DNA of 64,000 nt from Prorocentrum cordatum. Lineage: Eukaryota > Sar > Dinophyceae > Prorocentrales > Prorocentraceae. The first letter of the stretch is position 1; every line of letters starts with the position of its first letter. The notes beneath the pieces are model-generated. The model did not search any database, was not told the DNA's origin, and was given only the letters and a program-made list of their open reading frames with translations. A program made the position numbers and the translations under genes. The stretch is taken from the NCBI GenBank assembly GCA_963575745.1, contig CAUYUJ010015699.1, positions 206,120 to 270,119 on the forward strand, given 5' to 3'. This document shows, piece by piece, positions 27,390 to 53,606 of the stretch.

Positions 27390-27583
27390 ACTTTGGAGAA
27401 ACTCCCCCTGTCTGTGGTGCCTCGCGGGGCTCCCCGCGCTTGAGGGAGGGGCTGGCGGTTTACCGTTCCGTTCGCCCCGACGACGGCCACTCTGGTGGGC
27501 TTACTCTCCCGATAGCTACGGTGACGCTCCTGCTTGTCGCGACGATCTTTCGCGTGGCCCTGCGCCCCTCGGGAGGCGACGCC

Positions 27584-29451: not shown

Positions 29452-29506
29452 AACAATCGCCACCGAGGATATTCACACAGCCCAAGAGGAGGACGCCTGG
29501 GGCCCC

Positions 29507-30213: not shown

Positions 30214-30877
30214 CACCGCCTCCGCCCAGGCGTACCAGCCGCCGCTGTGCGCCGCGCTGGCGGAGGTGATCATCGAGGCGTTCGCCCGCGTGACGAAGGA
30301 GATGAGGGGCCCCGATCCGACGGGCTCGCGTGTGCCTCCATCCACTTCGTCCTTCGGCCCACCGAGGCCGGGAAGGGCGAGGATCGAGGTGAGGCGGGGC
30401 GATCGAGTCAGAGTCCCCCCGCTGTCCCCCGCCTGGACGCCGATCGCGAGATGGCGGCCGCTCTACTTCGGGAGGTGGAGGATCACGGAGCACACGAACA
30501 TCAACGAGACGCGGGCCGTGGTGGGCCTGCTGCGACACCTGGCCAGATCATCCCAGATGTGGAGGCGGAAGGTCCTGATCCTCACAGACAGCATGGTGGC
30601 TCTGGGGGCCCTGGGCAAGGTCCGCTCGAGTTCGCCAGCCCTGCTGCGCTTGTGCCGCCAGGCGGCGGCGATCACCATGAGCTTCGCGACTCATGGGTAC
30701 TATCGTTCCGTCCCGTCGGAGCTGAACGTCGCCGACGGCTTCTCTCGGGGGGGCTTCCTCGGCGCGGCGCCCGAGACGGTGGCAGCTCACAGCGACCGAC
30801 GCCCCGCTCCAACGGACAGCCGAGGTCACGATCTACGCGACCTGGGCCGCGCTTGTACGGGATACGCTGCTGGGTAG
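30214..30877 (+). pseudogene. YR retrotransposon RNase H, C-terminal part
   Basis: After the end of the methyltransferase-like domain, the same frame carries W-R-I-T-E-H-T-N-I-N-E-T-R-A-V (catalytic-type Glu at 30506). L-I-L-T-D-S-M-V-A-L-G-A-L follows (Asp at 30587), then V-P-S-E-L-N-V-A-D-G-F-S-R, the typical last RNase H motif of DIRS-like elements. The frame ends at TAG 30875-30877. The first Asp motif of the same fold lies 1.1 kb upstream, so the methyltransferase-like domain sits between two parts of one RNase H. Confidence 0.78.
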
Positions 30878-30879
30878 CC

Positions 30880-32167
30880 GCCATGGCATTGGAGGCAGTC
30901 CACCCTGTTGGAGCGGTTCGCCCGAAGCCACCCAGGGCGGGAGACATCCCCCTGCAGAAGCGAGGGCCACGGGCGTGGGAGAACTACGAGAAGGAGCCGC
31001 ACCTGGGCATCAGCGAGGGCGGCCTCGCAAGGCTGCTTACCCACTCCGTGGCGGACGTCACCGCGGCGCAGTGGGCCCCGAAGGTTCGAGACTTTCTCAG
31101 CCACTGTGTCGAAGGGTTGGGAGCTGCGGTCCTCGAACGCCGTGGACCACGCCCTGGCCGACTACATGGGCATGAAGTGCTACAAGGACCGGCTCCGTCC
31201 TACGTGGGGGTCGATCGTCTTGTTCGGGCTGCTGGTGATTTGGCCTGAGCTGAGGAACCAGCTTCCGCTGGCCTTGCGAAGCCTGAAGAGCTGGCAGAGG
31301 CTGGTTATCTCGGTGGAAGGGGGTCCCCTGCCTGAGGAAGCTGCCTTCGCCATCGCCATCTACTTCTTCGAGGCGGGGCTCCTGGATGAAGCCATCTGGG
31401 CCCTCGTGCAGTGCGACGTCTACGGGCGGGAGCAGGACATGGAGATGCTACGCGAGGCCGACATCATTTGGGATGGCCGATGCGTGGGCCTCCTGTTTGG
31501 CATCTCGGCCCGAGGCGAGGAGGGCAAGACGGGCAGCAATCAAGGGGTCGTCATCCGCCGCGGCACCGTCGCGAGCCTCATCCTGGCCCTGAAGGACGTC
31601 AAGAAGAATGCCACGGGGCCCATCTTCGGCCCCGAGCAGGCAGGCTTCCGCAAAGAGTGGCACCGCGGATGTCGCTCGCTTGGGATGCCCTGGGCGCCGC
31701 CTCCGCACGGGCTCCGCCATTCGGGGCCCAGCGAGGACGTGGCCCGAGGACGGGCCAGCCTAGAGCAGGTGCGGAGGCGGGGCAGGTGGAAGGCATTGTC
31801 CAGCGTCCAACGGTACTCCAAGACGTTCGCCCTCACGCAGTTCCGTGCAAAAATGCAGAAGAAGGTGCTGGACGTGGGCCCCCGTGCGACCTCAGACCTA
31901 GCTGCCGAGATACTCCGTGCGACAGAGTCCCGCACCAACTACAGCAAGCAGCAGCAGCAGCTGGTCGACGGCATCAGGACGAATCTGAAGACGAAGAAGG
32001 TGAAAGATGTCGCCGCAGAGCTCTTGATGCTGGGACCCACCACAAAGCAGAAGCAGAAGACCACCACCAACAAGAAGTCCACCAAGGGTGACACAAGCTG
32101 CCCAGAGTCCGACGACCTCTACTCCGACGAGACGTGGGGAGAGGGAACTGGATGGTGGACAGAGTGA
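30880..32167 (+). pseudogene. YR retrotransposon tyrosine recombinase
   Basis: Starts in one frame (M-A-L-E-A-V-H-P-V from about 30883, with E-N-Y-E-K-E-P-H-L-G-I) and changes frame near 31110-31130. From there it reads straight to TGA 32165-32167. The core has Y-G-R-E-Q-D-M-E-M-L-R-E-A-D (first catalytic-type Arg, about 31425). P-H-G-L-R-H-S-G follows (His-x-x-Arg box, 31702-31725). R-G-R-W-K-A-L-S-S-V-Q-R-Y-S-K follows, with the presumed nucleophilic Tyr at 31814-31816. R...H-x-x-R...Y order and spacing fit tyrosine recombinases of DIRS/PAT elements, which integrate circular cDNA. A Lys-rich tail follows. One frame break; catalytic residues are intact. Confidence 0.85.
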
Positions 32168-37450: not shown

Positions 37451-38286
37451 TGTGTAGCTGCCCAGCCATTCTGCCGAAAAAGGCCCAGCCATGTTCAGCT
37501 CCGAGCGCCGCGAGGGAGCGAGAAGAGAACGGGGGGAGGGCGAGCAAATGGACGGCTTGGGGGGAGCGGTGGAGGAGGCGGGGGGAGGAGGGACGGGGGG
37601 AAACGAGGATCCAAAGCCAGTACCCAACACCATACGAGGGCCCAGCACCGCGGAGCTCCGAGAGTTCATGTTCACCGAGAACAAAAGAACCCGTAACTCT
37701 GATAACACGATGAAGGCGTGGCCTCACCGAGGTCCCCGTTTTTGTGCATTTTGGGGCGATGCATCTGGAGAGTTTGGATCGTTACATGTGCAGCAAGGAC
37801 CCCCTATCCCTAATGTTCTTCTGGCCCTCCTACCTTCGGTCCCCTCCCAAGGGGCAGGGGTCCTTGTATGGTCTCTCATATGCCTTCGCAGATGTTTGGT
37901 CGGGCGATCGCAACCATGGATCAAGGGGGCGTGGATTAGCGACGGGTCTCGTTTCCACCAGACATCGCGGATTTCCGCCGCCGCACGAGGCGGCGCGGGC
38001 CGCATTTTTGGGGAGGGCCCCCCCCCCCGATCCGTGGACTTGGCGACCGCGCGCCAGCTCCATGGATCGCTGTCCCGTGCTTGCGCGCCCCCGGCTTTGC
38101 GCCTCCAGGTTCTGCTCGCCGGTGGCCCCGACGCTGTTCGGCCTGCGGCACAGCTCCGCAGTGGACCTGTCCGTGCTCCACGACAGGCGGCGCCCCGCCG
38201 GGCCGGCCACCCAAAACGCCACGGGCGCGGCGGCGCGGCGCCCCCCCGGTGCAGTGCCGTGGCCGCCTCGCCCCGCTCGGGGCCTT
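37451..38286. other. No supported gene; dispersed family 9 copy 1 at 37895-38110
   Basis: 37895-38110 shares GGATTAGCGACGGGTCTCG, ATCGCGGATTTCCGCCGCCG, CATTTTTGGGGAGGGC and TTGGCGACCGCGCGCC with 56045-56245. The sequence up to the left end of the 14.2-kb element contains no convincing frame. Confidence 0.65.
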
Positions 38287-38327
38287 CGCTTTGATCGTCG
38301 GGTGGCTGTAAGTGCGGTAAGAGCGTT
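38287..38327 (+). repeat. Left terminal inverted repeat
   Basis: 41 bp ending TAAGTGCGGTAAGAGCGTT. One mismatch (C against G) with the inverted right end. Confidence 0.95.
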
Positions 38328-38454
38328 CATCTTACATAATCTTAGTTAAGCCATAGAACGTACACTTGTTGATCGCGCATCTCATGTGTGCATATGCAAT
38401 ACTTATGGTGTTTGTAAGTGTAGATGTAAGTAATATACTAAGTTAGATATCTCT

Positions 38455-38588
38455 GCTAAGTCGATGGGGCTGAACATATTCGTGTTTTTGCTAATCATTT
38501 GCGTATTTTTTATTCTTAACTTTTTTGAAATCCATTGAATTTCCGTTGTTGTTGTTGTTCAGTTGTTCAGGACCGAGGCGCCGCAGGT
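38455..38588 (+). repeat. Left subterminal inverted repeats
   Basis: GCTAAGTCGATGGGGCTG (38455-38472) and GTTCAGGACCGAGGCGCCGC (within 38560-38588) are both found inverted and in the same relative order near the right end, at 52185-52203 and 52043-52070. Likely transposase-recognition or structural sequence. Confidence 0.85.
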
Positions 38589-38750
38589 ACTTGCTGTACC
38601 TCGCGGCCGCGGCGCTGCGGGCTGCGCGCATGCCCGCGGGGAGGGGGGAGGGAAGGAGGAAAATGTTTATCCATGTGTCTTCGGCCCTCCCTTATCCCCC
38701 CTTTCCTTAGGCGGCGCACCGCCTTCTCCTCCGTCGCCTCGTCCTCCGTC

Positions 38751-39069
38751 GGCGGTAATCCGCCTTCTCCCCCCCCCATGGCGGCAATCCGCCTTCTCCC
38801 CCTCCGTGGCGGCAAACCGCCCTTCTGGCGGCAAACCGCTTTCTCCTCCTTTGGCGGCAAACCGCCTACCCCTTCTGGCGGCAAACCGCCTTCTCCTCCT
38901 CTGGCGGCAAACCGCCTACCCCTTCTGGGGGCAAACCGCCTACTCCTCCTCTGGCGGCAAACCGCCTTCTCCTCCTCGTGGCGGGAAACCGCTTCTTCCC
39001 AACCGCCCTATCGGCGGCTTGCTTTGCCGCCTCCTTCCACCCCCTCGGCGGCAAGCCGCCCACCCCTTT
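38751..39069. repeat. Cluster of GGCGG-N-CCGCC hairpins (gene A upstream)
   Basis: About a dozen copies of GGCGGCAAACCGCC and variants (GGCGGTAATCCGCC, GGCGGCAATCCGCC), separated by CTTCTCCTCCTC-like spacers. Each can form a 5-bp GC stem with a 4-nt loop. Confidence 0.9.
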
Positions 39070-39204
39070 CCCCCCTCCCCTCCCTGGCCTCTCCTTGACC
39101 CACCCTCCCCCATAGCTCTCTTCTTCCCCCCCGCGCACCCTTCGGCACCCCCTCCCCCGCCCCCCCTTCGACACCCTCTCCCCCCTGCGCCCCCCCTCAC
39201 CCAG

Positions 39205-39337
39205 GAGGAGGAGGAGGAGGAGGGAGAGGAGGAAGAGGAGAAGGAGGAGGAGGAGGAGGGGGAGGAGGGGGAGGAGGGGGAGGAGGAGGAGGAGGAGGAG
39301 GAGGGGGAGGAGGAGGAGGAGCAGGAAGAGCAGGAGT
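39205..39337. repeat. (GGA)n microsatellite
   Basis: GGA/GAG triplets with AGA variants. It lies between the hairpin cluster and gene A. Confidence 0.93.
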
Positions 39338-39360
39338 AGGATATGTCCGTCGCACGCGCG

Positions 39361-39384
39361 TTGGCTCGATCCGTTTTTGGCGAG
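39361..39384 (+). other. Possible degenerate tandem SL relics upstream of gene A
   Basis: TTGGCTCGA is followed at once by TCCGTTTTTGGCGAG. This could be the end of one SL copy joined to a second that has lost the AGCCA block. Weak; it needs alignment to other copies. The ATG of gene A is 84 nt downstream. Confidence 0.25.
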
Positions 39385-39467
39385 CCCTCCTCCGAGGGCT
39401 TCGGGCGGCGTGCGCGCGCGGGGAGTCGCGCACTCCGCTCGGCGCGCGGTCGCGCCGCATCGCTGCC

Positions 39468-41563
39468 ATGGAGGGCATCCTTCGAGGCCGCCTGGAGGAG
39501 GCGCGGGCGGCGTTCGTAGCGCGCGGCAGTGCGACGGAGCACCTTCCTGCCTGCATCCAGGCGGCGACGTCCCAGCGCTGGTCGCAGCTCCAGAGTGCGC
39601 AGTTTGCTGCTTTGGGCGGCGGCGTGGGGTGGGCGCAGTCCGAGCTGGGAGACTTCTTGCAGGCTCTGTCGTCGGGCAGCCTGCAGGGGAGGAAGCTCCA
39701 GAACTACGAGGGGTTCATTGAATTTCTGACGCCTCAGTTGTGGGAGTTCGTGCTCTCGCCGCATTCGGGCTTCACTGCCAAGATGGCGGCGTTCTCAGAG
39801 CACCTCGGGGCGCTTGGCCTGAGGCATCCGAGCTGCCCGACGGCCGCCAATATGGCAGCATTCTTGTTGCTGGTGTGCAAGCAGACAGGCGTGGAGACGG
39901 GCGAGATCACGAGGGAGCTGTTGCAGTCATATCTGGCCACAGTGAAATCCTCGTTCAAGAATCTCGTGGCGACGATGCCGCCGCCCAGGGATGGCATCCA
40001 GGCTCTCCCCATCACGCCTGGGAGGCTCCAGTCTCAGTACCCCATCACGTACGTCGACGCCTTCCCGCCAGGTGTTGGAGCGACGGCGCCGCAGATAAAT
40101 CCCGTCGAGATGGTGACGATTGCGAAGCTGATTAATCTCCGTGCAGGGAAGAAGAGCGGCCACCTCGCGCTGCCCGCGCCTGCGCCCGCCCGCGGCGGGC
40201 TGCAGCCATCCCACGGCCCAGGCGGCGGCTCTCCTCAGCAGCACCTCCCCATCGCGGCGGCCGATTCGTTCTCTGGGCGCTGGCCGACGGCTCCACGGGG
40301 AATAACAGAACGCATTCCCCCGCGGGACACCTGGTATTGGGTCGAGGGGTGGGTTCCTGGATCGGCGCGGGGTACGTTTCTGGATGCCTGGATGGAGGGC
40401 GTGTTGTGAAATATTCCCCCCCCCCATCCCCCTAGGGGGATGGGGGGGGGGAATATTTTCGTTCGGCGGTGATCCGCCTGATTTCAGGTGGGGCTTTCGC
40501 GCAGCGGCGGCCGCTGGCCCAACCCAGCCATCCAGCTGATCGACCGCTCGCAGACGCAGCAGCCGCAGGAGCCGTTGCAAGAACGAGCAGGTTCGAACCA
40601 CCAGCTTTCGATGGCGGCGGGGAGTTCGGATGCGCCGTCGACGCAGCAACTGGCGGCACACGATGGCGGCAAACCCGCCGACTGTCAGCCGTTATCGAGC
40701 ACCGCCGCCGCCCAAACGGCCTCGATCAGCAAGAGCCGCGCGGCGAAGAAGCAGAAGAAGCATGAGCTGCCGATCGAGCTCGACTCCGACTCCGACTTCG
40801 GCATCGTCGCCGTGACGCCGCCGCCCAAGGCTGAGAAGGTCGGCATCGCCGCAGGCTCTCTGAAGAAGACCCCGACGGAGGCGGCTCTGGCCATGGTCGC
40901 GGCCATGGATAAGAGGACGAAGGCGGTCAAGACGAAAAAGAACGCCGAGGCGGTGAAGGCCCCCACGCTTGCCACGGGCAATGCTGCTAAGAAGACGACG
41001 CCGCCTGGCAATGACAACGCGGCAAAGAAGACGACGCCGCCTGCCACGGGCAACGTGGCTAAGAAGACGCCGCTCCCCACGGGCAAGAAGACGGACGGCG
41101 CGGCTGGGAAGGACAAGCAGCGCAAGTGGGCGAAGCCGAGGTGGGAGATGCAGACCACACGCAACTTGGCGAGCGGGGTTGAACCTCCCACCGATGAGGC
41201 GTCGGGCGCGCGCGGCGATTCCCAGCAGCCCCGCTGGGGTCGCAGTTTGCGCGCCCGCCGCCTTTCAGGCGACTGTTCATCGTTGCTCCGCCCCCCAGGT
41301 GCAGTTCCGCAGCGGCAGGGTCGGCGTCCCTGGCAGCAACGTCAGCCTGAAGTACATCGCGGGCGATGAGGCCGACAAGGCCAGATTCTCACCGACGCCC
41401 TTCTCGACGCCCTCCTCCGCGCTCTCTTCATTTTCGCCCCTGCCTCGACGCCCCCTCCGCCCCCTGCTGCCTCGTTGCGCCCGATCGCTCCGAGGCCAGG
41501 GCCATCGCGGAGGCGGAGGAGCTGGTCAAGAAGGAGCTCGCCGCCAGGGCGCGCGGCGAGTAA
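39468..41563 (+). CDS. Element gene A: unknown protein with Lys-rich repeats, 4 exons
   Basis: ATG at 39468 in a CGCTGCCATGG context. Exon 1 has an alpha-helical N-terminal domain: L-Q-N-Y-E-G-F-I-E-F-L-T-P-Q-L-W-E-F-V, then L-G-L-R-H-P-S-C-P-T-A-A-N-M-A-A-F-L. Its frame is open to TGA 40407-40409. A phase-compatible GC donor at 40143 would join exon 2 (40488-41177), which follows a GATTTCAG acceptor. Exon 2 is basic, with K-S-R-A-A-K-K-Q-K-K-H, an acidic patch D-S-D-S-D-F-G, and repeats of A-A-K-K-T-T-P-P-x-x-x-N reminiscent of histone-H1-like tails. Exon 3 is 41299-41379 (V-Q-F-R-S-G-R-V-G-V-P-G). Exon 4 is 41495-41563 (A-R-A-I-A-E-A-E-E-L-V-K-K-E-L, stop TAA). Introns 2 (GT-AG, 121 bp) and 3 (GC-AG, 115 bp) join in phase 0. 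About 500 residues; the basic repeats suggest nucleic-acid binding. Family unknown. Confidence 0.65.
40409..40458. repeat. 50-bp perfect palindrome
   Basis: 25-bp arms with no spacer, centred on CCCCCTAGGGGG at 40433/40434, with C10/G10 runs and AAATATT ends. It lies in the presumed first intron of gene A, overlapping the stop codon of the unspliced frame. Confidence 0.95.
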
Positions 41564-41626
41564 TTCGCGCTACGACTCTTCAACTCTCCAGGCCAACGGG
41601 GCGGCCTCGGGATAACAAAAAGGTCG

Positions 41627-41752
41627 TGGCGGATATGCCGCCTCGTGGCGGATATGCCGCCTTGTAGCGCAGCCTTCTCGCCTTCCAACTCGTGGCGGAC
41701 ATGCCGCCCCCGCCCCACCCCTTTGCGCTCCTCCGCCCTTCAGGCGGACATG
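41627..41752. repeat. GGCGG-N5-CCGCC hairpin cluster (between A and B)
   Basis: GGCGGATATGCCGCC twice and GGCGGACATGCCGCC twice. 41564-42327 has no other gene I can support. Confidence 0.9.
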
Positions 41753-42166
41753 CCGCCGCCCCCCTCCCCTACTCGGCCCACTCCGCGCCCCCGCGCCACG
41801 TCCCTGCGCCCCCCTCTCCGCTGTCAGGCACTGGATCCCACGCCAACTAACGTCGGGGAGACGCCCACTGCTCGAACGGCGAAGGCGTTCACCCAGAATG
41901 GCATGGGCGCGCGCGAAGGCACCGACGTTGCCACCGCCCGTTCAACGACGAAAACAAGTGAACCAAGACCTGCACATTCAAAGGGACACCAGTTCACTTA
42001 TATTTCTGGTTCCCAATGCCACCCTCACTCTGCCCCCTCCCCCGAGACCCCGTCGCAAGAACCAGCGGGGCCCTTCTGAGAGGCCCCCGAGGGCTCGAGG
42101 AGCTCCAAGACTTCAATGGGTCCATGGGCAACCCCCTCCCCCTCCTCCCGAAGTCTCGCTTCCGCG

Positions 42167-42188
42167 TCCGATTCCATTTCGGTTCAAG
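42167..42188 (+). other. Diverged SL relic upstream of gene B
   Basis: 17 of 22 positions match the dinoflagellate SL without gaps. It begins TCCG, keeps CCATTT and ends TTCAAG. It is on the coding strand, 139 nt before the likely ATG of gene B. Confidence 0.5.
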
Positions 42189-42327
42189 CCCGCGGCCCGC
42201 GGGTGCCCGCGAGCCCGCGCGGGGTCGGCCCCCCCCTTTCGCGCCGACGCGTGGGCTGGGGCCCGCGCGCCGAGGCTGCGCCGCAGCCACCGCGTCGCGC
42301 TCGGCGCCTCGCACTGCGGCCGCGGCC

Positions 42328-43372
42328 ATGGCAGACAGCGGCAGCGCGTTCGACGCGTTGGAGGCAGCTGCATCGCCAAAACAAGTGGCCCCGCGTGCGG
42401 TAGCCAGGGACGCGCGCATCGCGCGCGAAACTGGCTGGCCGCTCTCGGTCGAACTGTTTTGGCGATTCGGCGCAGGAGATGTTCGGGCCAGCGATGCAGT
42501 TGCTCTCCGACCTTGCGGGCGTGGACAACAACGCAGGGGATCGGTCTTCCTCCGCCAGCGGCAGTCGGCCAGCCAGCGCGCCCACGTTGGCGGCGCAGCC
42601 AGCGCGATCGCGCAGCCCGCGCCACCCGCGGGCACCGTCGACGCCGCCGCGCAGGCGGGGGCCGACGTCACCGCCGCGGGGCCCGCGGCAGCGGCCTTTC
42701 CCGCCCTCGGCTCTCGTGAAGGAGCTCGCGTCGCACATGCGGGGCGCGACGCCTGTGGTGGAAGAGCCCCCCGAGGCGGTGGAGGCGCATCCCAGCGCGG
42801 TGGAGGCGTTCAGGACGCAGCTGCGAGCCTGGCTGAGCGACCCCGTTGGGAATCCCATCGACTGGCGGTCGGAGACCGTGCTCGCCGTGCTCAAGGAGTA
42901 CCAGATGAAGTACGACTACAAGAAGTTCCGCGACCGCGGCCCGCCTGGCCCCGCCATGGGCGGGCCGCAGACGTGGCAGGGCCAGGCGTGGCGCGCCAAT
43001 GCGAAGCGCTGGGGGAACCGAGGTGGCGCAAAGCGCGAGATGTACGCGAAGCTGCACGGCAACAAGGCAGCGCCGCGGGTGCGCGAGGCGCACGTCCCCA
43101 AGCCTCAGCTGATGCATCGGGAGCCCATGGCGCCGAACTTGCCCAAGACGATGCCTCAGCAAGCGCCGTGGAGGACTGGCAATATGAACCCTCCAGTTCC
43201 GCCTCCGCCGCCGAAGACCATGGGGCCGCCGCCGCCGAAGACCAGGCAGCCGCCAGCAGGGAAGCCCAGCATGGTGCAGCCGAGGGCAGGGCGTCGGCTG
43301 CAGCCGACAAGCAAGATGGCACCACCGCCAGCGAAGCCGCGCCCGCCCGCCCGCGGAGATGTCTTCTTGTAG
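42328..43372 (+). CDS. Element gene B: proline/arginine-rich unknown protein
   Basis: The ATG at 42328 has the element's GCGGCCATGG start context and opens M-A-D-S-G-S-A-F-D-A-L-E-A-A-A. The better coding frame downstream is offset and open from 42404, with C-F-G-D-S-A-Q-E-M-F-G-P-A-M-Q-L-L (an in-frame ATG is at 42479). A shift or unrecognised small intron near 42385-42410 is therefore needed. It continues as a Ser/Pro/Arg-rich segment (P-R-H-P-R-A-P-S-T-P-P-R-R-R-G) and a folded-looking stretch A-F-R-T-Q-L-R-A-W-L-S-D-P-V-G-N-P-I-D-W. A basic Gly/Arg/Asn segment and a long P-P-P-P-K tail end at TAG 43370-43372. Part of the N-P-I-D-W-R-S-E-T coding sequence is duplicated at 48070-48122. Unknown function; composition suggests RNA or DNA binding. 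Confidence 0.6.
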
Positions 43373-43533
43373 GGTGATCGCGTGGACCTGCAAGCGGGCT
43401 GGGGTGCATAGCTTCCGTAATTCGAGCGCGGATAGTTGCAGCTATCCGCGCTGACGCGTCATGACGCGCCGCCTCTCCCCGCCTCGTCTCATCTCATCTC
43501 TCCTCCCCTCTCTTCGTTGCCGATCTATCTCAT

Positions 43534-43767
43534 TGGCGGACGCGCCGCCTCCCCCCGCCTGGCGGACAACCGCCGTTCAGATACGAGCATCGGCGCATCG
43601 GGTTTGTTCTATGCGGTTGGAAAAAAACACCAGTCCTTCCCTGAGCCACCCATTGGCGGCTAAACCGCCCTGAAGCCTCCATTGGCGGCCACGCCGCCCA
43701 TTGGCGGCTAAACCGCCCATTGGCGGCCACGCCGCCCTGAGCCCTCCATTGGCGGCTAAACCGCCGC
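43534..43767. repeat. GGCGG-N5-CCGCC hairpin cluster (between B and C)
   Basis: GGCGGCTAAACCGCC and GGCGGCCACGCCGCC alternate about three times each, with CCATT spacers. GGCGGACGCGCCGCC and GGCGGACAACCGCC lie at the left. Confidence 0.92.
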
Positions 43768-43924
43768 CGCCGCCTGCTGGCATCCCGAAATGTGCGATGC
43801 CACCGCGCCTCTTACACATGTATGTTTTTGTTGTTGGGACGCTGTATCGGCTCGAATCTAGGCGCGCACAGGCTCGCGCCCCACGCCGCCCCTGCGCTAG
43901 CCGCGCACTTCTCGCCCTGCCGCC

Positions 43925-44563
43925 ATGGCAGGCCAGCAGGGCGAGAAGACCGTCATGTTCGGCTTCAAGTGCCCACAGAGCAGCAGCTGCAAAAGGGGCG
44001 GCAAGTGGTTCCAGGGAGAGACAGTGGAGGCGGCCAGGAACAAGCTGGTGAACCACCTTCGCGTGTCGCCGTACCACGACTTGAGCGAGGACGAAGCGGA
44101 GGTAGCTGCTGTCGCACTCGAGCCCGACTCGTGGGAAGTCGACCTCGCGGAGTGGCGCCAATGGGAGGAGGAGAAGGCCAACTGGGGCTCCGTCAAAAGG
44201 CGCAAGGGGGCGCCGAAGGTCGAGCTGGCGCCAATCCCTCCACAATCCCGCGTGGAGCGCTCGCACCAGCTGAAGGACGCGTTCTCGGAGGGCAGCGGAT
44301 CGTCAGGCGCAGCTTCGTCAGCCACGGCGGGCATGAGGATGTCCACGGCGTTGGCCAGCCAGATGTCGCCCGATAGCATCGTGGTGCTCAACGGCACCCA
44401 GTGCCAGGCTGTGCTCGACTCGTTGCGCCGCGCGCGTACTGCGACGCAGATGTGCGCCCAGATAGCGGAGCGCGCGGTGAACGCTTTCCGCCAAGAGGAG
44501 CAATGCATCGCCGAGTGCGAGGACGTGCTCGCGAGCTGGCTGGTGCGCAACGCGACCTCGTAG
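43925..44563 (+). CDS. Element gene C: unknown 212-residue protein with Cys pair
   Basis: Single intact ORF from ATG 43925 (context CTGCCGCCATGG) to TAG 44561-44563. The N-terminus V-M-F-G-F-K-C-P-Q-S-S-S-C-K-R-G-G-K-W-F has a C-x5-C pair and aromatic residues that could be part of a small zinc-binding or DNA-binding fold. A-R-N-K-L-V-N-H-L-R-V-S-P-Y-H-D-L follows. The middle is W- and E-rich with a basic S-V-K-R-R-K-G patch. The C-terminal third is helical, with a Cys and Gln pattern (A-T-Q-M-C-A-Q-I-A-E-R-A-V-N-A-F). It has no frame breaks and the best-behaved codon use in the element. Family not recognised. Confidence 0.75.
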   Translation: MAGQQGEKTVMFGFKCPQSSSCKRGGKWFQGETVEAARNKLVNHLRVSPYHDLSEDEAEVAAVALEPDSWEVDLAEWRQWEEEKANWGSVKRRKGAPKVELAPIPPQSRVERSHQLKDAFSEGSGSSGAASSATAGMRMSTALASQMSPDSIVVLNGTQCQAVLDSLRRARTATQMCAQIAERAVNAFRQEEQCIAECEDVLASWLVRNATS

Positions 44564-45009
44564 GTGCAGGTGCACGGCTGGCAGCACTGATGTCGCCTCA
44601 GCATCAGTAGCCTCATTCGCGCAGGCGGCGCGACGCGTCGGCCCTACACGCCCCCCTCCCACTCCTCCAACGCAATTTCAATCCACACCCCTGTGTCAGA
44701 ACAAATTAGGACACCCCCACACACTCCATCCGCACTCAATTCGTGAAGGCCGCCACGCCGAGGTGAATTTTGGCCACGCAGGCGGCCGAGTAGCCGTCCC
44801 CCAATGCAAGGCGATATGGGGGCGAGTGGACGAGCGGAGCGGGAGGAAGGTGAGGGAACTTCGGCGGATAAGACAGGTGGGCGGTTGGATGGGATTTGGC
44901 AAAAGGGCTGGGTGGAGAAAACTGCATCCGCATAAGAATGAGTGCGGCTATTTTCTGGATGTGCTGCATCGCCATGTCCGCCCACCCCCCCCATCGCCTT
45001 GCATATGAT

Positions 45010-45122
45010 GACGCTCAGGCAGCGCGCCCCGATTGCGCGCGCTCGCCCGTCTCTTCGCTGCCGCTCAGGCAGCGCGCCTCGCTTCCGCGCTCGCCCGTCT
45101 TTTCGCTGCCGCTCAGGCAGCG
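45010..45122 (+). repeat. About 55-bp tandem repeat, 2-3 copies
   Basis: CGCTCAGGCAGCGCGCC then GCGCTCGCCCGTCTCTTCG repeats at about 55-bp spacing, ending with a third CGCTCAGGCAGCGG. The palindromic CGCTnnnGCAGCG word is reminiscent of the element's hairpins. 44564-45009 holds nothing I can support. Confidence 0.8.
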
Positions 45123-45245
45123 GTTTGAAGCACGCGGCGCCGTCCGCGGTCGGTAGCGCAGGGCGCCGCTCCGCCCCTGCTGCTCCGCTTAACTAACTCG
45201 GCGGACGTGCCGCTACGCCGCCGCCATGCACTGGCAAAAAAAAGT

Positions 45246-45397
45246 TGGCTGTTATCATATGTTAGCAGATGTTATCACGCGCCTGATAACACCTGATAAC
45301 ACCTGATAACACCTGATAACATGTTATCAGGTGTTATCATGTGTTAGCATGGTGTTATCACACGCCTGATAACATATGATAACATATGATAACATGA
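45246..45397. repeat. TGATAACA direct and inverted repeat cluster
   Basis: At least a dozen TGATAACA/TGTTATCA octamers in both orientations. They include four consecutive CCTGATAACA units followed by ATGTTATCAGGTGTTATCA. It is AT-rich inside a GC-rich neighbourhood, between genes C and D. It could be a protein-binding array, an origin-like element or simply an unstable minisatellite. Confidence 0.92.
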
Positions 45398-45477
45398 TGT
45401 CAATTTTGTGTGGTTGTCATGTTGCGCGCAATTCATTTCAGTATCCGTATCACCTCGTGCGTCCGCCACGCTTCGAG

Positions 45478-45737
45478 CGGCTAGTCCGCTGGCGGCCAAT
45501 CCGCCTCCCTCGCCGCGCCCCTGCACCCTCTCAAGCGGCGAGTCCGCTGGCGGATATGCCGCCCCCTTCATACCTCACTCCACCCCTCCCTCCACCTTTG
45601 AAGCGGCTATTCCGCTGGCGGCTACCCCGCCTCACTTACCGCGCGTTTTCTTCGTCATCGCTTCGCGTCCAGCTCATCTTGGCATCAGGGCCGCGCGCGA
45701 CGCGCGGCTTCTCGCGTGCCAAGGCGGTCACGCCGCC
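45478..45737. repeat. Diverged hairpin cluster (gene D upstream)
   Basis: GCGGCTAGTCCGCTGGCGGC, GGCGGCCAATCCGCC, GGCGGATATGCCGCC, GGCGGCTACCCCGCC and GGCGGTCACGCCGCC occur before the gene D ATG. At 45666-45691 an AGCTCATCTTGGCATCAGG segment weakly resembles an SL relic with two gaps. Confidence 0.8.
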
Positions 45738-47675
45738 ATGGCGGGGACGCCGCCCGCTGAAGATCACCAGCAGCATTCTCTGGCAGTGATGTTCGGAGCA
45801 GCCAGGCCGAAAAACAAGGGAGTGATGACCAAGGCGCCCGCAGCGAAGCCCCGTGGGAAAGCTAAGCTATCGGGGACGCAGATGACACTGACTGGACAGC
45901 TTGTGCCGCCGCTCGCATTGACCGACGCAGGGCCGCCGAAGGCACGCGGGAAAAGCAAAGGCAAGGGCAAAGGTAAGCACCCCGCAGCGTTGAGGACGGC
46001 TCGCAAAGCTGCGTCAGCCGCAGCTCCCGCCGAAGAACTGCCTCCTCAGGGCGCAGCGGCTTTGCCACCAGAGCCGGACGACGCAGCGTCAGAGGCGGCA
46101 TCGGGCTCCGAGGAGCGCGGCGACGAGATTGGTTCCGAGCTCGGCGTCAAACAGGATGAGCTTGAGAGTGCCAAGCGTGAGCTTGAGGAGGAAGAGGCTC
46201 CACCGCAGGGCGCGGTAGCCAAGGTTGAGAATGAGGAGCGCTCGCCCGAGGCGGCAGCGCCGCAGGCGGAGGAGGAGGAGGCAGCTCAGGACGATCCGCC
46301 AGCAGGCGCTCCCCAGGTAGGGGAGTTCGTGGATGTGCATGGCATCGGGCATAGCATCGTGCGTTGCAACCGCTGCTGTCGCACGGCAAAGGAGTGCAAC
46401 TACAGGATCAGGCGAAGGGCCAGTCGACTTACCAGTGCGACGCGTGCAACACGAACGGGGTGCGCCTTTCTCGGAGGTTCGGACAGTGGCCGCCAAAGTG
46501 TTTCGCCAAAATGAAGAGTGAGTTCAAGCAGCAGTTCTACAAGGATCTGGCAGAAGATCCTGGGCTGTCGAACCTCGATCGCATTGAAGCCTTCGTGGTC
46601 AGCTCAATCACTGTCCAACGGATGGAGGAGGAGCGCGTCCGCAAGGGTGGCAAGTACCTTCCGCTGAGGAAGTGGGCGCACGACGGCTTCGACGCGAAAA
46701 AGATTGAAGATAATGTGCAGGATAAGAGGTGGAACCCTGATCTCGGGGAGTGGACGTACAGGCCGCAATTGGAGGCGGCCTGGAGCGAGACAGTGGAGGC
46801 CGCAGTGCGCAACGAGCTGTACACCGATAAGAGGACGCAGGCGAAGCAGAGCGGCCCGCGGGCAGCGGCCTCGACGGGCGTCGCAGAGCACGGCGGCGAC
46901 AAGGGCGACAGAAGCGACGAGAGCGACATGTCCAGATCCAGGCGGCGCCGCAGGCGCAGGTCTGACAGCCGCAGGAGGAGGAGGCGCAGCATGAGCAGGC
47001 GCGACAGCAGGGGCAGGCGCGACAGCAGGAGCAGACGCCGCGACAGACGTCGCGACACCAACCGCAGCAGGAGCCGCTCGCGCGGCGACCGCGACAGGAG
47101 CAAGAGCCGCCGCAAGGGCAGGAGCAAGAGCCGCGGCAAGAGCAAGGACAGGAGCAAGAGCAGGCCGTTTGGGGGTTCAACGCAGGGGTGTCGCCTGGGC
47201 TTCGCATTCGTTTTCGGTTTCCGTTCAACTCTTCAGGTTCGGATCGGGTTATTGATTTCGCTCGGCTCGAAGTGTTGTCATTTTCGGACAACCCCGAAGG
47301 CTCCGCAGGGATAAGGACGCTGAGAAGGAGCGGAGGCGACAGGAAGCGAGGGAGAAGGCCGAGCAGGCCAAGAAGGAGACGCAGGAGAAAAACCTGGCGC
47401 TGAAGTGGATCGGCACCGCAACGAGGCTCGAGACAGAGCTGGACGGGTACCTCGAGCATGAGAAGGCGGACAAGGTGCCGTCATGGGCTGTGAAGAACGC
47501 GAAGGCGGCGAGGAAGTCTGTGGCAGTCATGAAGGCGGTGGCGCAGAAGCGCGTGCACAGCGGCGTGGCGTTGACGATCACGCAGGACGAGGCCATCAGC
47601 ATCCAGAAGGATGCGAGCTCGGCGGCGAGGGCCATCGCGGGGATGCTCAAGGAGGCGCAGAAGCACAGCACCTGA
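45738..47675 (+). CDS. Element gene D: zinc-ribbon-like, SR-rich protein, 2 exons
   Basis: ATG 45738 (context ACGCCGCCATGG). The N-terminal part is low complexity, with M-F-G-A-A-R-P-K-N-K-G and Lys/Gly-rich and acidic segments. At 46340-46395 it reaches V-R-C-N-R-C-C-R-T-A-K-E-C. One base is then out of frame, and the next frame continues Y-Q-C-D-A-C-N-T-N-G-V-R-L, then P-P-K-C-F. Four or more Cys across the shift look like one zinc ribbon. A helical domain (L-R-K-W-A-H-D-G-F-D-A-K-K-I-E) and a long Arg/Ser-rich tract (R-S-R-R-R-R-R-R) follow. A 145-bp GC-AG intron (47164-47308, phase 2) gives an exact join K-S-R-D-K-D-A-E-K. Exon 2 is a Lys/Glu coiled-coil-like segment, then V-H-S-G-V-A-L-T-I-T-Q-D-E-A, ending TGA 47673-47675. 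Probably nucleic-acid binding; family unknown. Confidence 0.68.
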
Positions 47676-47744
47676 GCGCCCCATGGTGGCCCAGTACATC
47701 ATGAAGTACGGCCTGAAAAGGTGGAGAAGGACCCGAATAAGCCG

Positions 47745-48375
47745 CGGCCGCTGGGCCGCTCGTGAGCAGGGGCGGCAGTTGGGCCGCTCCTGACGAGGTG
47801 TGTGATTTCGTACAATTGTTATTGTTGGTGAAACAACATTTCCACCGCCACCCCACTCGTTACCACCGCAGCCCTTCGTTTGGCGGGGATGCCGCCTTTC
47901 CACTCTCGCAAGCCCTTGGCGGACATGCCGCCTTGCCTTCATTTGGCGGAGATGCCGCCTTTGCTGCTCATCGCGCTCCGATGCCTCACTTGGCGAGGCG
48001 AAGCGCTTGCATAACTCCCTCCTGCTCGTGCGCGTCCTGCCCGAGACCCTACCGCGCGAGCTGTGGCTCGCGAAGGCCAGCGACACCGTTGGGAATCCCA
48101 TTGATTGGCGGTCGGAGACGAAGCAGAGGCGAAGCAGCTCCTTGGCAGGGGCGGCAGTTGGGCCGCTCATGACGAGGTGTGCGATTTCGTACAAGTGTTA
48201 TTGTTGTTGAAAAAAAAAAACATTTCTTCGTTGCCATCGCCACCCCACTCGTTACCACCGCAGCCCTTCGTTTGGCGGGGATGCCGCCTTTCCACTCTCG
48301 CAAGCCCTTGGCGGACATGCCGCCTTGCCTTCATTTGGCGGAGATGCCGCCTTTGCTGCCCACCGCGCTCGCACC
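47745..48375 (+). repeat. About 390-bp-spaced duplication between genes D and E
   Basis: 47760-47975 (GGGGCGGCAGTTGGGCCGCT through TTGGCGGAGATGCCGCC) is repeated at 48145-48362 with few changes. Each copy has three hairpins (GGCGGGGATGCCGCC, GGCGGACATGCCGCC, GGCGGAGATGCCGCC). Between the copies lies a gene-B-like fragment GTTGGGAATCCCATTGATTG. Confidence 0.9.
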
Positions 48376-48424
48376 GTTCTCTCGCGTTTCCCAATGACAT
48401 GATCTGCCACCGTCCCACCCCTCA

Positions 48425-48446
48425 TCCGTAGTCTTTGTGGCTCAAG
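48425..48446 (+). other. SL relic upstream of gene E
   Basis: 19 of 22 positions match the dinoflagellate SL. It begins TCCGTAG and ends GTGGCTCAAG. It is 44 nt before the ATG of gene E and on the coding strand. A chance match this good is very unlikely in 64 kb. Confidence 0.8.
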
Positions 48447-48489
48447 TGGAGCCGCTCGAGGTCGTGCCCCTTCGCGGTCTTGCGCCGCC

Positions 48490-48786
48490 ATGGCGAGCAT
48501 CGCGGACAAGTACGACGTCGATGACTTCGAGCTCATCACGGGTGGCAGTGCGTGGAGCTGGGCGACCATCGTGGTGCGCTTCATCGAGTGGCGCAATCGT
48601 TGCCGCCATGCACGCGCCGTTGGCATCAAGGGCCAGATGCTCATCGACAAGGCGCGGCGCATGATGGAGGAGGCGCGCCGCACCGAGGAGCGCGGCAAGA
48701 TGCTGTGCCAGATGTCGAAGCAGATGGTGCAGGACATCCCAGGCGGCATTCGGTTCTTCTGCCGCCAGCCGCACCAGGAGAGCTGA
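48490..48786 (+). CDS. Element gene E: small helical unknown protein
   Basis: 98-residue intact ORF from ATG 48490 (GCGCCGCCATGG) to TGA 48784-48786. The N-terminus is A-S-I-A-D-K-Y-D-V-D-D-F-E-L-I-T-G-G-S-A, then W-A-T-I-V-V-R-F-I-E-W-R-N-R-C. A charged amphipathic helix follows (K-A-R-R-M-M-E-E-A-R-R-T-E-E-R-G-K), and the end is I-R-F-F-C-R-Q-P. No frame breaks. The SL relic at 48425 indicates the coding sequence passed through an mRNA stage. Function unknown; its size and charge would suit an accessory DNA-binding or regulatory protein. Confidence 0.7.
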   Translation: MASIADKYDVDDFELITGGSAWSWATIVVRFIEWRNRCRHARAVGIKGQMLIDKARRMMEEARRTEERGKMLCQMSKQMVQDIPGGIRFFCRQPHQES

Positions 48787-49143
48787 GCGGCGATCGGCTG
48801 GGCCGATAGAGGAGGATAAGGAGGAAGAGGAGGCAGGATGAGGAGAGGAGGAGGAGGTGGATGAGGAGTTGGAGGCAGCACGCGCACCCGCACTAAGAGC
48901 CGCCAGCCGCCGCCGCGCCCGTCCCGCGCTGCGCCCGTCCCGAGCTCGAGCCGCCAGCCGCGCCCGTCTCCGAGCGCTGGCGGCTTGGAACCCGAGCTTG
49001 AAACTCAAGCTCGAAATTGCGTGCGAGAAAAAGAAATCTCCCTTGCAAGTTCCGTTGCTACGCTCACTTCGCGCCTCCGCAATCTCCCCCACCCACCCCC
49101 TCCCCCCTCCCCCCTCCCCCCATGCCCCCTCGCCCCCACGCTC

Positions 49144-49214
49144 TTCGGCGGCTACGCCGCCCCTCCCGACCCTTCAGGCGGCTACACCGCCATGCCCTTC
49201 GGCGGCTACTCCGC
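49144..49214. repeat. GGCGG-N5-CCGCC hairpins (gene F upstream)
   Basis: GGCGGCTACGCCGCC, GGCGGCTACACCGCC and GGCGGCTACTCCGCC in succession. At 49239-49273, TCCGTCTCTCTGGCTGCAA and TTCGTTTTTCTCAACC may be two degraded SL copies (weak). Confidence 0.88.
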
Positions 49215-49332
49215 CCCGCGATCCATTCCCGCCTCCACTTCCGTCTCTCTGGCTGCAATTCGTTTTTCTCAACCGCGCTGGGCCTCGCGCTGCCCCCCGC
49301 CCCCGCCCCTCCCGCGCGCGGGCGTCGGCGCA

Positions 49333-51742
49333 ATGGGGAAACGCGCCCTGCAGGTGGACAAGCAGGTGGAGCAGCGGGCTCGACTGCAACAGTGTCTGGC
49401 CCTGCGCGGCGTGTCCGCGGCTTTGCTCGAGCGAATCGTGACTGCGCTTGGCCATGGCGACGACGCGGGCGATGCTATAGACGTGAGCGCTCGGGCCATG
49501 CAGCGATCGCAGACGGCATCCGTGGCCGATCTCATCAGCGCAGTGCGGCTGCAGCCCAAGATCGGCACGCCTTTCCGATGGAGCGTGGCGCTGCCGCATC
49601 GGCTGATGCCGAGGCTCCTGTCGGACTGCCCTCTCTGGAGTTCAATGTTTTGGGAAGCGATGCGCCGTTTCCCTGTGTCGCGCGATCGGCCGTGGAGGCT
49701 TTTGCTGTACTACGACGACATTGGCGTGGGCAACGCCTTGAAGATAGATAATCGTCGGAATCAGCTCGCGGTGTATGCGAGTTTCCTCGAGTTCGGATCC
49801 TTCTTGCAGAAGGAGGTTGCGTGGCTGCCGATCGGCACCTTGCGCGTCGTCGTGAAGAAGAGCATCGGCGGCTCGGCCGTGGCGCGGGCATTGCTTCGCG
49901 CGCTGTTCCTGGGCCCAGAGAGTCTGTCGGAGCACGGTGCGCCAATCGGCGGCGTGCACTTTTTCGCCAAGTTCCACCGCTTGATTGCAGACGAGGCGGC
50001 TGGAAAAGAGACATTCTGCACCAAGGGCGCTGCAGGTCTGAGACCGTGCTTGCAATGCAAGAACGTTGTGCTGGATCAGGCGGAATGTCTTGCAGACTAC
50101 GACGACGATGATTACCTCGTGCCTCTCTGGTGCGCTGACTCGTCGCGCTTTGACCCGCTGTCGTCAGACGAGTTTTTGCAGCAATATGATGATTTGGCGT
50201 CGCTGCGGGACACGACAACCAGAGCGAACATCGAGAGACTGGAGCCAGGGAGGAAAACATTTCCATCGATCCCCTTCTGATGTCCCCCCCTTCCTTCCCT
50301 TCTGATGTTCCGGCCCCCGAAGGAGACGGCAATGGGCATCACTCTGGATGACCGTTCTCTGGTGGCGTGCCAGGCGTTGCGGACGGTGGCGCCGCCGAGC
50401 ACATACGTGAGGGACCCCATGCATACCATGCTGGCCAGCGGCGGGACCTTGCAGGTCGAAATCTTTGCGCTCCTCAAGGCGGTGAGGGATGTCATCCCCG
50501 ACGCGTGGGGAACGTGGCGGGATCGCTGCTCGGCGTGGCGGACTGGCAGACGCGGCAGGAAACCGCCAGCGTTTCTGTTCAGCGTGGCTCGGAAGAAAGC
50601 GACCTGCAAGGCGTCGCACTTCGTGGGCAAGGCGTCGGATTGCTTGGCCGTGTTCCCTTTGATTCGTCATTGGGTGCACACAGAGCTGCGTCCCAGCGGC
50701 ATGGCGAACGCTGCGGCGCGGTCGTTCGAGGCGATGGCGAAGATGCTCGAATTGTACATGCAGGGCAAAAGGACATGCGGCCGCAGCTGAAACGCAAACG
50801 CTGGCCTGCGCGTTCGAGGATGCACCGCGTCGGCCCGCGCGCATCCTCGAGCGCTTAGGTGGCAGGCGGTTCGGCTACGTCCTGAGGATCGGCGCCGTGC
50901 CGAATTTGATAGCTGTCTGGACCAAGGCCGTTTCGATTTCCTTGGCGCTGCACAAAGCCGCGCACGGGCCAGCCCTGATCAAGCCGAAGCATCATTATTT
51001 GTGGCACGTCCCCGACCAGCCTGCGGAGGACGGCATCTGGTTGGACGCCTTCGTACTCGAGCGGAAGCACAACCTGCTTCGGTCCAGGTCGCAGGAGATC
51101 GACAACCCTGAGAATTTCGAGCGGTCGGCCTTGACGGCGATGCTCGCCTGCTTCCTGGAGGAAGCGAAGGAGGCGCCGCGCTCCCGCGCCAAAGCGTGGC
51201 GCACGCCAGAGCTGGACAGTACGTTCGGGCACTCGGGGCGCAACCTTGCATGCCCTTTGTGGAGGAAGATGGGCTGGGAGAGGGGAAGGCGGTTTGCCGC
51301 CGAGGCGGCTCGCCGCCAGGAGGAGGAGGAGGAGGAGGAGGAGGAGGAGGAGGAGGAGGAACCCCTCCGCAGGGCTGAAACGTGGACCAGCAGAGAGGCG
51401 TCGATCGACGGCCAGATGTACGGCAGCCAGGACAGACGGCGCAACCAACCTTGGTATTTAGGGGTGCACATGCGTGTGCCCCCCCAAAAATCGAGGCGTT
51501 GCTGCCCTCAGGATTTTCTCCTGGGCGACGGCGAGGCGTACATCGTGCATTGCTGCGCGCAGGCTGGCGCCGCCAGCTACCTGCTGGTGGAGACCCTGGA
51601 ATGGGTGCGCGCGCCATGCCCAGGCGCGTCCCTGTGGCGGCCGCGCGGCGACGTCGCCGTGATGCCCGCCGAGCTGATCCCGCCAGCCTGGGCGGCTTAT
51701 CGGCGACTACAGGACGATGGCTATGTGCTCGCCATCACGTGA
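49333..51742 (+). pseudogene. Element gene F: DDE-type transposase-like gene, interrupted
   Basis: ATG 49333. Part 1 (to TGA 50278-50280) has L-L-L-Y-Y-D-D-I-G-V-G-N-A-L-K (Asp pair at residues 128-129), W-L-P-I-G-T-L-R-V-V-V-K-K and a Cys motif G-L-R-P-C-L-Q-C-K-N. A short local duplication of CCCTTCTGATGT surrounds the stop. The same frame resumes with Y-V-R-D-P-M-H-T-M-L-A-S-G-G (Asp at 50413). The frame changes near 50780-50800. Part 3 has L-I-K-P-K-H-H-Y-L-W-H-V-P-D and F-V-L-E-R-K-H-N-L-L (Glu at 51059), a polyglutamate insertion (51320-51360), and a C-terminal domain ending at TGA 51740-51742. D...D-x-x-H...E-x-K-H order suits an RNase-H-fold DDE transposase, perhaps in the Plavaka/CMC neighbourhood, but that placement is tentative. 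Position at the end of a TIR element supports the role. Confidence 0.62.
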
Positions 51743-51773
51743 AAAAGGAAAAAACGAGCGCATGCGAGAGCGG

Positions 51774-51960
51774 ATATGCCGCTGGCGGATGCGCCGCCCT
51801 TCGATAGAGAGGTGCAGGAGGGAGGGGCGGATATGCCGCCGAAGAAGGAAGGCGGGCTCGGGGAGGGAAGGCGGCAGGAGGGAGCGGGGGCGGGCTGGCC
51901 GCCGACAACGAGGAGAGGAGAGGGGAGGCGGTGATGGCCGCCGAGGGGAGGCAGTTTGAA
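51774..51960. repeat. Hairpin-like tract after gene F
   Basis: GCGGATATGCCGCTGGCGGA, TGCGCCGCC, GGCGGATATGCCGCC and later GGCGGCAGG and GGCCGCC words, purine-rich towards the end. Confidence 0.7.
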
Positions 51961-52042
51961 GAATAGTTGATCCCCCCCCCTCTCCCTCTCCCCCCTTCCC
52001 CTCCGCGCCCCGCAGGCGTCCTGAGGGCGGCTCGGCGCGTCG

Positions 52043-52203
52043 ACCTGCGGCGCCCTGTCCTGAAAAACTGTTGTGTTGTAGTTGTTAAAACGTTTTTTGT
52101 GGTTTTTTCCCGAAACATAGCAATATCAAGAACAAACATGCAAAACATAGAAAGTTATGCAAATTTCGGGTTAACCGAATCGGACAGCCCACATCGACTT
52201 AGC
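52043..52203 (-). repeat. Right subterminal inverted repeats
   Basis: GCGGCGCCCTGTCCTG (within 52043-52070) and CAGCCCACATCGACTTAGC (52185-52203) are inverted partners of the left subterminal blocks. The surrounding 52060-52450 is AT-rich and contains no gene. Confidence 0.85.
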
Positions 52204-52452
52204 TGACTTAGCTACTAAGTTGGGTATGTTGAGGTGTATGTATCGATATATCTTGGCAGTGGTACCCGATAGCTCAGTTGATAAGATGGATGGTTCTGTG
52301 AGTAGTATGTATGGTATGTTGTTGAATATACTTATCTAACAAAACGTCAAGTAGATGAATGCGAAGTTCGATATTTTATATATGTTGAATATGTGAGGTC
52401 AACTAGCATGAACCTACATACATCTTCGTTGAAACGATTTCATCGGATATAC

Positions 52453-52493
52453 AACGCTCTTACCGCACTTACACCCACCCGACGATCAAAGCG
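52453..52493 (-). repeat. Right terminal inverted repeat
   Basis: AACGCTCTTACCGCACTTAC at the inner side, ending CGACGATCAAAGCG. The mate of 38287-38327. A G-rich tract follows directly. Confidence 0.95.
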
Positions 52494-52554: not shown

Positions 52555-52597
52555 ACATGAACAGGAAGAACCGGAGGTCGGCGCAGATTTCTCATCG
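52555..52597 (+). repeat. Foldback family 2, left-half fragment
   Basis: ACATGAACAGGAAGAACCGG plus AGGTCGGCGCAGATTTCTC corresponds to the left arm only. Confidence 0.5.
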
Positions 52598-52999
52598 TCT
52601 TCTCGGTCGTCGACGTTATCGCTGTCGTCGTCGCCGCCGCCGTCGTCGTCGTCTTCGTCGTCCGTTGCCGTCGTCACCGTTGTCGGTCGTCGTCGTCGTC
52701 GTCGTTGTCGTCGGCGTCGGCGTCGGCGTCGGCGTCGTCGTCGTCGTTGTCGGTCGTCGTCGTCGTCGTCGCCGCCGTCGCCATCGTCGTCGTCGTCGTC
52801 GTCGTCGTCGTTGTCGGTCGTCGTCGTCGTCTTCGTCGTCCGTCGTCGTCGTCGTCGGCGTGGGCGTCGTCGTCGGCGTCGGCGACGGCGTCTTCGTCGG
52901 CGGCGTCGGCGTCGTCGGCGTCGTCGTCGTCGTCGTGGTCGTCGTCGGCGGTCGTCGGCGGTCGTCGGTCGTCGTCGTCGGCGTCATCGTCGTCGTCGT

Positions 53000-53033
<34 letters not shown>

Positions 53034-53230
53034 GTCGTCGTCGTCGTCGTCTTCGTGTTCGTCGTCGGCGGTCGTCGGCGGTCGTCGGTCGCCGTCGTCG
53101 GCGTCGGCGTCGTCGTCGTCTCGTCATCGTCGGCGTCGTCGTCGTGGCGTCGGTGTCGTCGGCGTCGTGATCGTCGTCGTCGTCGCGTCGTCGGCGGTCG
53201 TCGGCGTCGTGATCGTCGTCGTCGTCGGGT
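52598..53230. repeat. (CGT)n / (CGTCGG)n microsatellite
   Basis: More than 600 bp of GTC/CGT triplets with GGCGTC variants. The long frames here are artefacts. A GC-rich stretch to 53446 has no supported gene. Confidence 0.96.
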
Positions 53231-53446
53231 CGTCGTGCTGCGTCGGCCGCCGCGCCTCGCTGCTCCCCGCGTGCGAGGGCGCCCGCCCGCCGCGGCCCCG
53301 ACCCCCCTCCGGAGTGAGGCGGGCGCCGCCGGAGCGGCAGCAGCGGGCCGTGTGCGCGTTCGCGCGCGAGCAGGGCCTGCCGGCGGGGCAGGACCGTCGG
53401 CGGGGTCAGGGCGGGCGGGGCAGGGGAGCGCCCGGGCCTCGCTTGT

Positions 53447-53606
53447 CAGGAGGGGATCACACACAGACACAATGAATCGCCGCTCCCCAGGAAAACGTGG
53501 GGAACTATGGGAAGCGGGGGGGAAGACGAAAACCCAGAAAATATGAAACAAATATGGGGAATCCTGTTATTTGTGTGTATCTATTCGTGTGTCCCAGGGC
53601 CCCTTT
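53447..53606 (+). repeat. Dispersed family 1, copy 5
   Basis: Starts CAGGAGGGGATCACACACAG. Contains GAATCGCCGCTCCCCAGGA, GGGGGGAAGACGAAAACCCA and GGGGAATCCTGTTATTTG, and ends GTGTCCCAGGGCCCCTTTG. Confidence 0.9.

Follow-up and report, generated by a model that had tools for sequence, protein, structure and literature searches.

A multigene DNA transposon of Prorocentrum cordatum with near-identical copies and a gene order shared by two sibling families

We analysed a 64,000-nucleotide stretch of the red-tide dinoflagellate Prorocentrum cordatum (GenBank assembly GCA_963575745.1, contig CAUYUJ010015699.1, positions 206,120 to 270,119; hereafter the window), in which a sequence-only reading had marked a multigene transposon at positions 38287–52493. 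Positions 38289–52491 (14,203 bp) are, with a probability that we put at roughly 85%, a recently moved P. cordatum DNA transposon that is probably autonomous, carries conserved accessory machinery and is cut and pasted by the product of its last gene, F. Fixed ends with 39-bp inverted repeats, target-site duplications of 2 bp, a large number of near-identical copies and the gene order A-B-C-D-F in three diverged families can be read directly from the sequence; cut-and-paste by F is the most likely route of movement, and the functions given below to the companion genes are proposals.

The left terminal inverted repeat (38289–38327, + strand) matches the right one (52453–52491, − strand) at 38 of 39 bases, and 100% identical copies of it occur elsewhere. 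The ends had been described as 41-bp inverted copies with one mismatch; the inverted pair and its single differing base stand, but the true length is 39 bp, because the outer CG (38287–38288 on the left, 52492–52493 on the right) varies among copies and is the target-site duplication. Across 36 complete copies, the flanking dinucleotides were identical on both sides in 34 (CG in 15, TG in 8, CA in 5, AG in 2, AA in 2, GA in 1 and TA in 1; a tally enriched for NG, as the first left-end query began with CG), and a third flanking base was common to both sides in none of the 34. A strict NG target was rejected as an artefact of that CG-initial query, since it was gone with a query starting at the element: 34 of the 40 left ends listed by the latter were read, giving 27 pyrimidine-purine and 7 purine-purine flanks, and four of the six unread ends were NG by the first listing. 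The two copies with mismatched duplications (L050 and L079) look like recombinants or misjoins; the right flank of L050 was also found at L024. Both pairs of subterminal inverted blocks (38455–38472 with 52185–52203, and 38560–38588 with 52043–52070) were present with small differences in each. The AT-rich ends and GC-rich core were likewise borne out, with a GC fraction of 0.45 (left) and 0.39 (right) in the outer 350 bp vs 0.61–0.72 per kb in 38001–52000; these AT-richer regions carry six ACTTA/TAAGT motifs on the left (38289–38638) and five on the right (52142–52491).

To place copies, the source assembly (4.13 Gb, 21,875 contigs) was searched; for P. cordatum CCMP1329, the assembly description in PMC10666404 gives 4.15 Gb and 59.7% GC. 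A left-end query returned 385 first-look candidates and a query starting inside the element returned 380; the best 40 of each were scored, and all were 100% identical over 133–134 and 132 bases, respectively. Pooling both listings gave at least 57 distinct left ends, including the window's own. The right end was found in 35 of 45 short stretches fetched ~14.2 kb from left ends, making 36 complete copies with that of the window, and the ends thus recur as pairs ~14.2 kb apart at many sites. When 20 left halves (10 kb each) were fetched, 16 aligned unbroken over ~9.4 kb at 98.9–99.9% identity, at unrelated sites, which agrees with the fairly recent movement first proposed from the near-identical ends. 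The other four (L022, aligning in two pieces, and L011, L013 and L020, aligning only partially) are internally changed or diverged copies, and the ~94% identity of L011 over its first 3.7 kb suggests an older subfamily. Among 17 left halves (the window and the 16), differences from the majority letter amounted to 5–82 substitutions in ~9.3 kb (median 14), and indels numbered 8 in approximate coding sequence vs 55 in a similar length of non-coding sequence.

Natural empty sites were identified for two insertions, L025 and L046, which sit in satellite whose intact units are present in other fetched loci. Their flanks, joined with one copy of the duplication and allowing at most one substitution, had 19 and 20 matches, while flanks joined with both duplication copies had 0 and 0. 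Among the fetched loci, the joined flanks of L077 and L060 had no matches with one or both duplication copies. A satellite with a ~130-base unit (L104:1-1353, L105 from about 1780, L041 and L046) hosts insertions of this family and of a sibling family, gamma; because both families inserted there, the satellite may be a preferred target or may merely be abundant.

Evidence for a conserved gene set came from two sibling families, alpha and gamma, each read from one copy. A protein query (P0003) within the same genome gave 3,762 candidates, of which the best 67 were scored. The alpha element (C514:30973-43125, 12,153 bp) carries perfect inverted ends of 33 bp and, in this one copy, the duplication AG; for a second alpha copy, the left end was not found within the stretch fetched. 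The gamma element (contig C4903, 10,329 bp, within L104/L105) has the 14-bp inverted end CTGGCGTAGCGACT and the duplication CA, and five further gamma copies carried TG, TG, CA, CT and TA, equal on both sides in 5/5. Elements of all three families end in CT..AG, and their terminal inverted repeats differ. Both siblings agree with the window element in gene order and strand, with homologues of A, B, C, D and F at tblastn E-values, each computed on a single fetched stretch, of 4e-11, 1e-9, 3e-13, 4e-27 and 1e-45 in alpha and 2e-5, 0.004 (weak), 2e-5, 6e-16 and 9e-30 in gamma. Judged by position among the matches listed, D lay 2.2–3.6 kb and A 7.2–10.1 kb upstream of F on the same strand in 22/22 alpha-like F matches, D lay 1.7–1.8 kb upstream in 23/28 gamma matches, and D lay ~3.5 kb upstream in 6/17 matches of the element's own family. 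Retained as a set by all three diverged families, the accessory genes do not look like random cargo. Because two distant relatives in this genome preserve both the genes and their order, the element looks like a member of a little-noticed lineage of complex transposons.

Gene F (49333–51742, + strand) comprises exon 1 at 49333–50241, exon 2 from 50323 to ~50772 and exon 3 from ~50860–50890 to 51739 plus the stop, with inferred splice sites. A search of a set of 5.8 billion proteins, in which the best 8,000 candidates were scored, recovered nine homologues with 30–50% identity, and 0/9 had a precomputed Pfam domain. In an alignment of 12 sequences (F, the nine homologues and the two siblings), D128, D220 and E510 were invariant, and these residues are probably the catalytic triad. 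A C(2)C motif (C239 in 12/12 and C242 in 11/12, with one extra residue between the cysteines in the alpha sibling) and an H(3)H motif (H488 in 12/12 and H492 in 11/12) were also conserved. The spacing of 19 between D220 and C239 equals that in RAG1. Gene F had been called DDE-transposase-like, and the acidic triad upholds that call on the basis of conserved motifs; in the profile search suggested for it, 10 F proteins gave no match to a Pfam transposase model at E-values up to 10 (HMMER), so that the DDE call rests on the conserved motifs. Exon 1 of F was free of stops in 16/17 own-family places listed.

These features resemble the CMCT group, which in the account of PMC12730594 includes EnSpm/CACTA, Mirage, Chapaev, Transib, Plavaka, ESTA and Lanisha, with RAG1 as kin. 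In that account, CMCT transposases carry a D, D, C(2)C, H(3-4)H, E pattern, with the C and H motifs between the second D and the last E, and produce target-site duplications of 2–5 bp (2 bp in PlavakaA). The order of motifs in F, D, D, C(2)C, H(3)H, E, follows this pattern; the element has inverted ends, and its 2-bp duplication lies within the group's range. It differs from the group in its four conserved companions, its intergenic palindromes and the two-way array that separates C from D, and it escapes the Pfam models. We therefore suggest that F works like a CMCT transposase, which may fall within the group or outside it. The subterminal repeats also recall maize En/Spm, which pairs a transposase with a DNA-binding helper that has repeated sites (TnpD and TnpA); the helper role is putative here, and the present element differs in having more companions, sites across all spacers and no demonstrated sequence link. 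Several genes between inverted ends are likewise a feature of KDZ elements. According to PMC12730594, KDZ and other fungal transposons have captured TET/JBP genes and Zisupton has an 8-bp duplication; here, the duplication is 2 bp, and neither TET/JBP nor another Pfam domain was found in the ten frames scanned.

The sequence-only reading had proposed six genes, A–F. All six lie on the + strand, and homologues in both siblings back every one except E (48490 to ~48744), an open frame that is doubtful, with no match in alpha or gamma (tblastn, E-value 0.1). Gene A (39468–41388) has approximate exons at 39468–40286, 40515–41165 and 41296–41388, and the part of exon 1 examined was open in 17/17 copies. 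A palindrome with perfect 25-base arms and a C/G run of copy-variable length lies between its exons 1 and 2 (40409–40458). Gene B (42328–43369) has a proposed start at 42328, a main open frame to 43369, a probable intron near the start and the motif KKFRxRGPPGP..GGP..W.GQ.WR; the part examined was open in 17/17 copies. Gene C (43925–44563) is a single exon encoding 212 amino acids with a C/H zinc-finger-like N-terminal part, intact in 16/17 copies. Gene D (45738–47672; approximate exons 45738–46409, 46415–47164 and 47310–47672) carries CxxC...CxxC followed by FGxWPP, and its exon 1 was intact in 13/17 copies. The spacer before gene E contains a 140-bp block (in 47839–48370) that recurs 392 bp downstream at 97% identity. 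No Pfam match reached the curated cut-off for ten frames of the element or eight sibling accessory proteins, and Rfam had no match on the window. Sub-threshold Pfam matches were not used as assignments; examples are a C2H2 zinc finger for C (0.066), TFIIA in a glutamine-rich part of alpha A, zf-RVT in alpha C and Cwf15 in a lysine-rich part of alpha D.

As to whether the genes travel together between the same ends, A, D and F stood at fixed distances from the left end where matches were listed. Among the at least 57 own-family left ends, an A match lay at 1.08–1.19 kb in at least 44, a D match at 7.5–7.6 kb in at least 16 and an F match at 11.07–11.10 kb in at least 8, figures that refer to the matches listed, with missing entries carrying little weight. 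Gene A was placed at 98 low-identity places, mostly in its own family. Among proteins deposited for P. cordatum, P0010 is a fusion of parts from A, B and D, while the gene D protein P0016 has a UniRef name that begins 'ADP-ribosylation factor-like protein 6'. P0011 (from the European Nucleotide Archive), P0020 and P0021 are gene D and A proteins, for each of which the longest contig listed is 12,150 bases; because all three list a contig of that length, there may be a further sequenced copy of the element outside this assembly.

Each family also has its own palindromes, lying largely outside genes in the window element. There, GGCGG-N4/5-CCGCC occurs 41 times vs 0.24 in shuffles (maximum 2) and a single time in the other 49.8 kb of the window; nine N4 forms cluster before gene A (38710–39060), and 4/41 begin inside approximate coding exons. 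In gamma, AGCGA-N5-TCGCT occurs 33 times vs 0.02 in shuffles and the GGCGG palindrome once, and alpha has 14 GGCGG and 5 AGCGG palindromes (shuffles 0.1 and 0.04). A two-way repeat array lies between C and D (45250–45394; TGATAACA in seven copies and TGTTATCA in five), and the same spacer holds arrays of other units in the siblings (CCGATAAC in alpha and TGGTCCAACG in gamma, the latter with few inverted copies). ACTTA/TAAGT motifs lie mostly within the outer 350 bp of the ends in every family (11/14 in the window element, 8/9 and 8/10 in the siblings), although the inverted ends differ. This pattern fits a shared candidate transposase-binding motif, ACTTA/TAAGT, together with family-specific candidate sites to which the companion proteins may bind.

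Taken together, we propose that F, a predicted RNase-H-like DDE transposase of general CACTA/Transib type, would bind the inverted ends, perhaps along with the ACTTA motifs, excise the element and insert it with joints staggered by 2 bp, in most cases at a pyrimidine-purine dinucleotide. The companions would form dedicated accessory machinery, a role less certain than that of F. The zinc-binding-like proteins C and D may read the family-specific palindromes and the C-D array, comparable to TnpA of maize En/Spm, which binds subterminal motifs. The layout of all genes on one strand would suit polycistronic transcription with trans-splicing. An introner-like role, with splicing via G|C..AG|, is not supported, on reasoning only, as removal would leave or lose one base.

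Several observations weigh against this interpretation. F has no match among Pfam models or PDB sequences, and the CT..AG ends of all three families depart from the 5'-CA..TG-3' that PMC12730594 gives for most CMCT lineages, though not as universal. The ACTTA/TAAGT motifs were counted in AT-rich ends without a shuffle control. The end was missing where expected in 10/45 right-end stretches, in which internal, altered or other sequence, or N, stood instead. Finally, between-copy differences bear no clear mark of selection, because most substitutions are nonsynonymous and their frequency in coding sequence (119/4,646 sites) is no lower than in non-coding sequence (88/4,666).

The rival with most weight, which we nonetheless regard as unlikely, is that the element spreads by a replicative copy-and-paste route instead of excision or is mobilised in trans by the transposase of another element. 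High copy number and near identity would suit either; inverted ends, a 2-bp duplication and a DDE-type gene inside the copies are usual for cut-and-paste, and exon 1 of F is stop-free in nearly all own-family places listed. It is considerably less probable that a one-gene cut-and-paste transposon has picked up host genes, with A–E as passengers. Genes A–D have no known function, and the gene D query gave 32,893 first-look candidates in the genome (best 126 scored); because these are so many, D-like genes may also lie outside elements. Against passengers, homologues of A, B, C, D and F recur with order and strand unchanged in both sibling families, whose ends are different, and A and D lie upstream of every alpha-like F match listed.

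A virus-like origin, as a Polinton or polinton-like virus, is very improbable. Polintons have target-site duplications of 5–6 bp, vs 2 bp here, although size, inverted ends and the presence of several genes are comparable. The ten frames had no Pfam match to a protein-primed polymerase B, a retroviral-type integrase, a capsid or a packaging protein. Viral contigs searched for F relatives by pattern gave 61 pattern matches, none confirmed, and phage records held no F relatives. Endogenous polinton-like viruses are reported in Oxyrrhis marina (PMC12721341). Least probable of all, at the level of a negligible chance, is an immobile segmental duplication or assembly artefact: the left ends of L077 and L082 do share identical 30-base left flanks, and L050 and L079 have mismatched duplications, but the ends are exact, most of the flanks compared are unrelated, nearly all complete copies have a matching duplication and empty sites are present.

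Around the element, a long GTC/GAC-rich simple-repeat tract (52557–53550) lies directly to its right. To its left, long + strand reading frames form a run (25211–32167), and five frames scanned from it had no Pfam match at an E-value of 0.01.

Eukaryotic cut-and-paste transposons usually have one or two genes, and searches of the open-access PubMed Central literature (preprints being outside its scope) found no description of this element. Tentatively, and at somewhat less than even odds, these families may form a eukaryotic DNA transposon superfamily in its own right, one that abounds in dinoflagellates and moves by a conserved machinery of five parts, in which four companions accompany a divergent RAG1/CACTA-like transposase. 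Each family would have its own coevolved palindromic recognition code and two-way C-D array, and the genes, D above all, would make up a sizeable part of the catalogued lineage-specific dinoflagellate genes. Gene catalogues would need correction, as databases list gene D proteins among the ordinary proteins of P. cordatum, one of them (P0016) under a host-type name. The conserved five-gene set with its family-specific candidate recognition sites would be a new system for studying a transposase with dedicated partners, and the near-identical recent copies with several intact reading frames provide material for such tests and a possible insertion tool for dinoflagellates.

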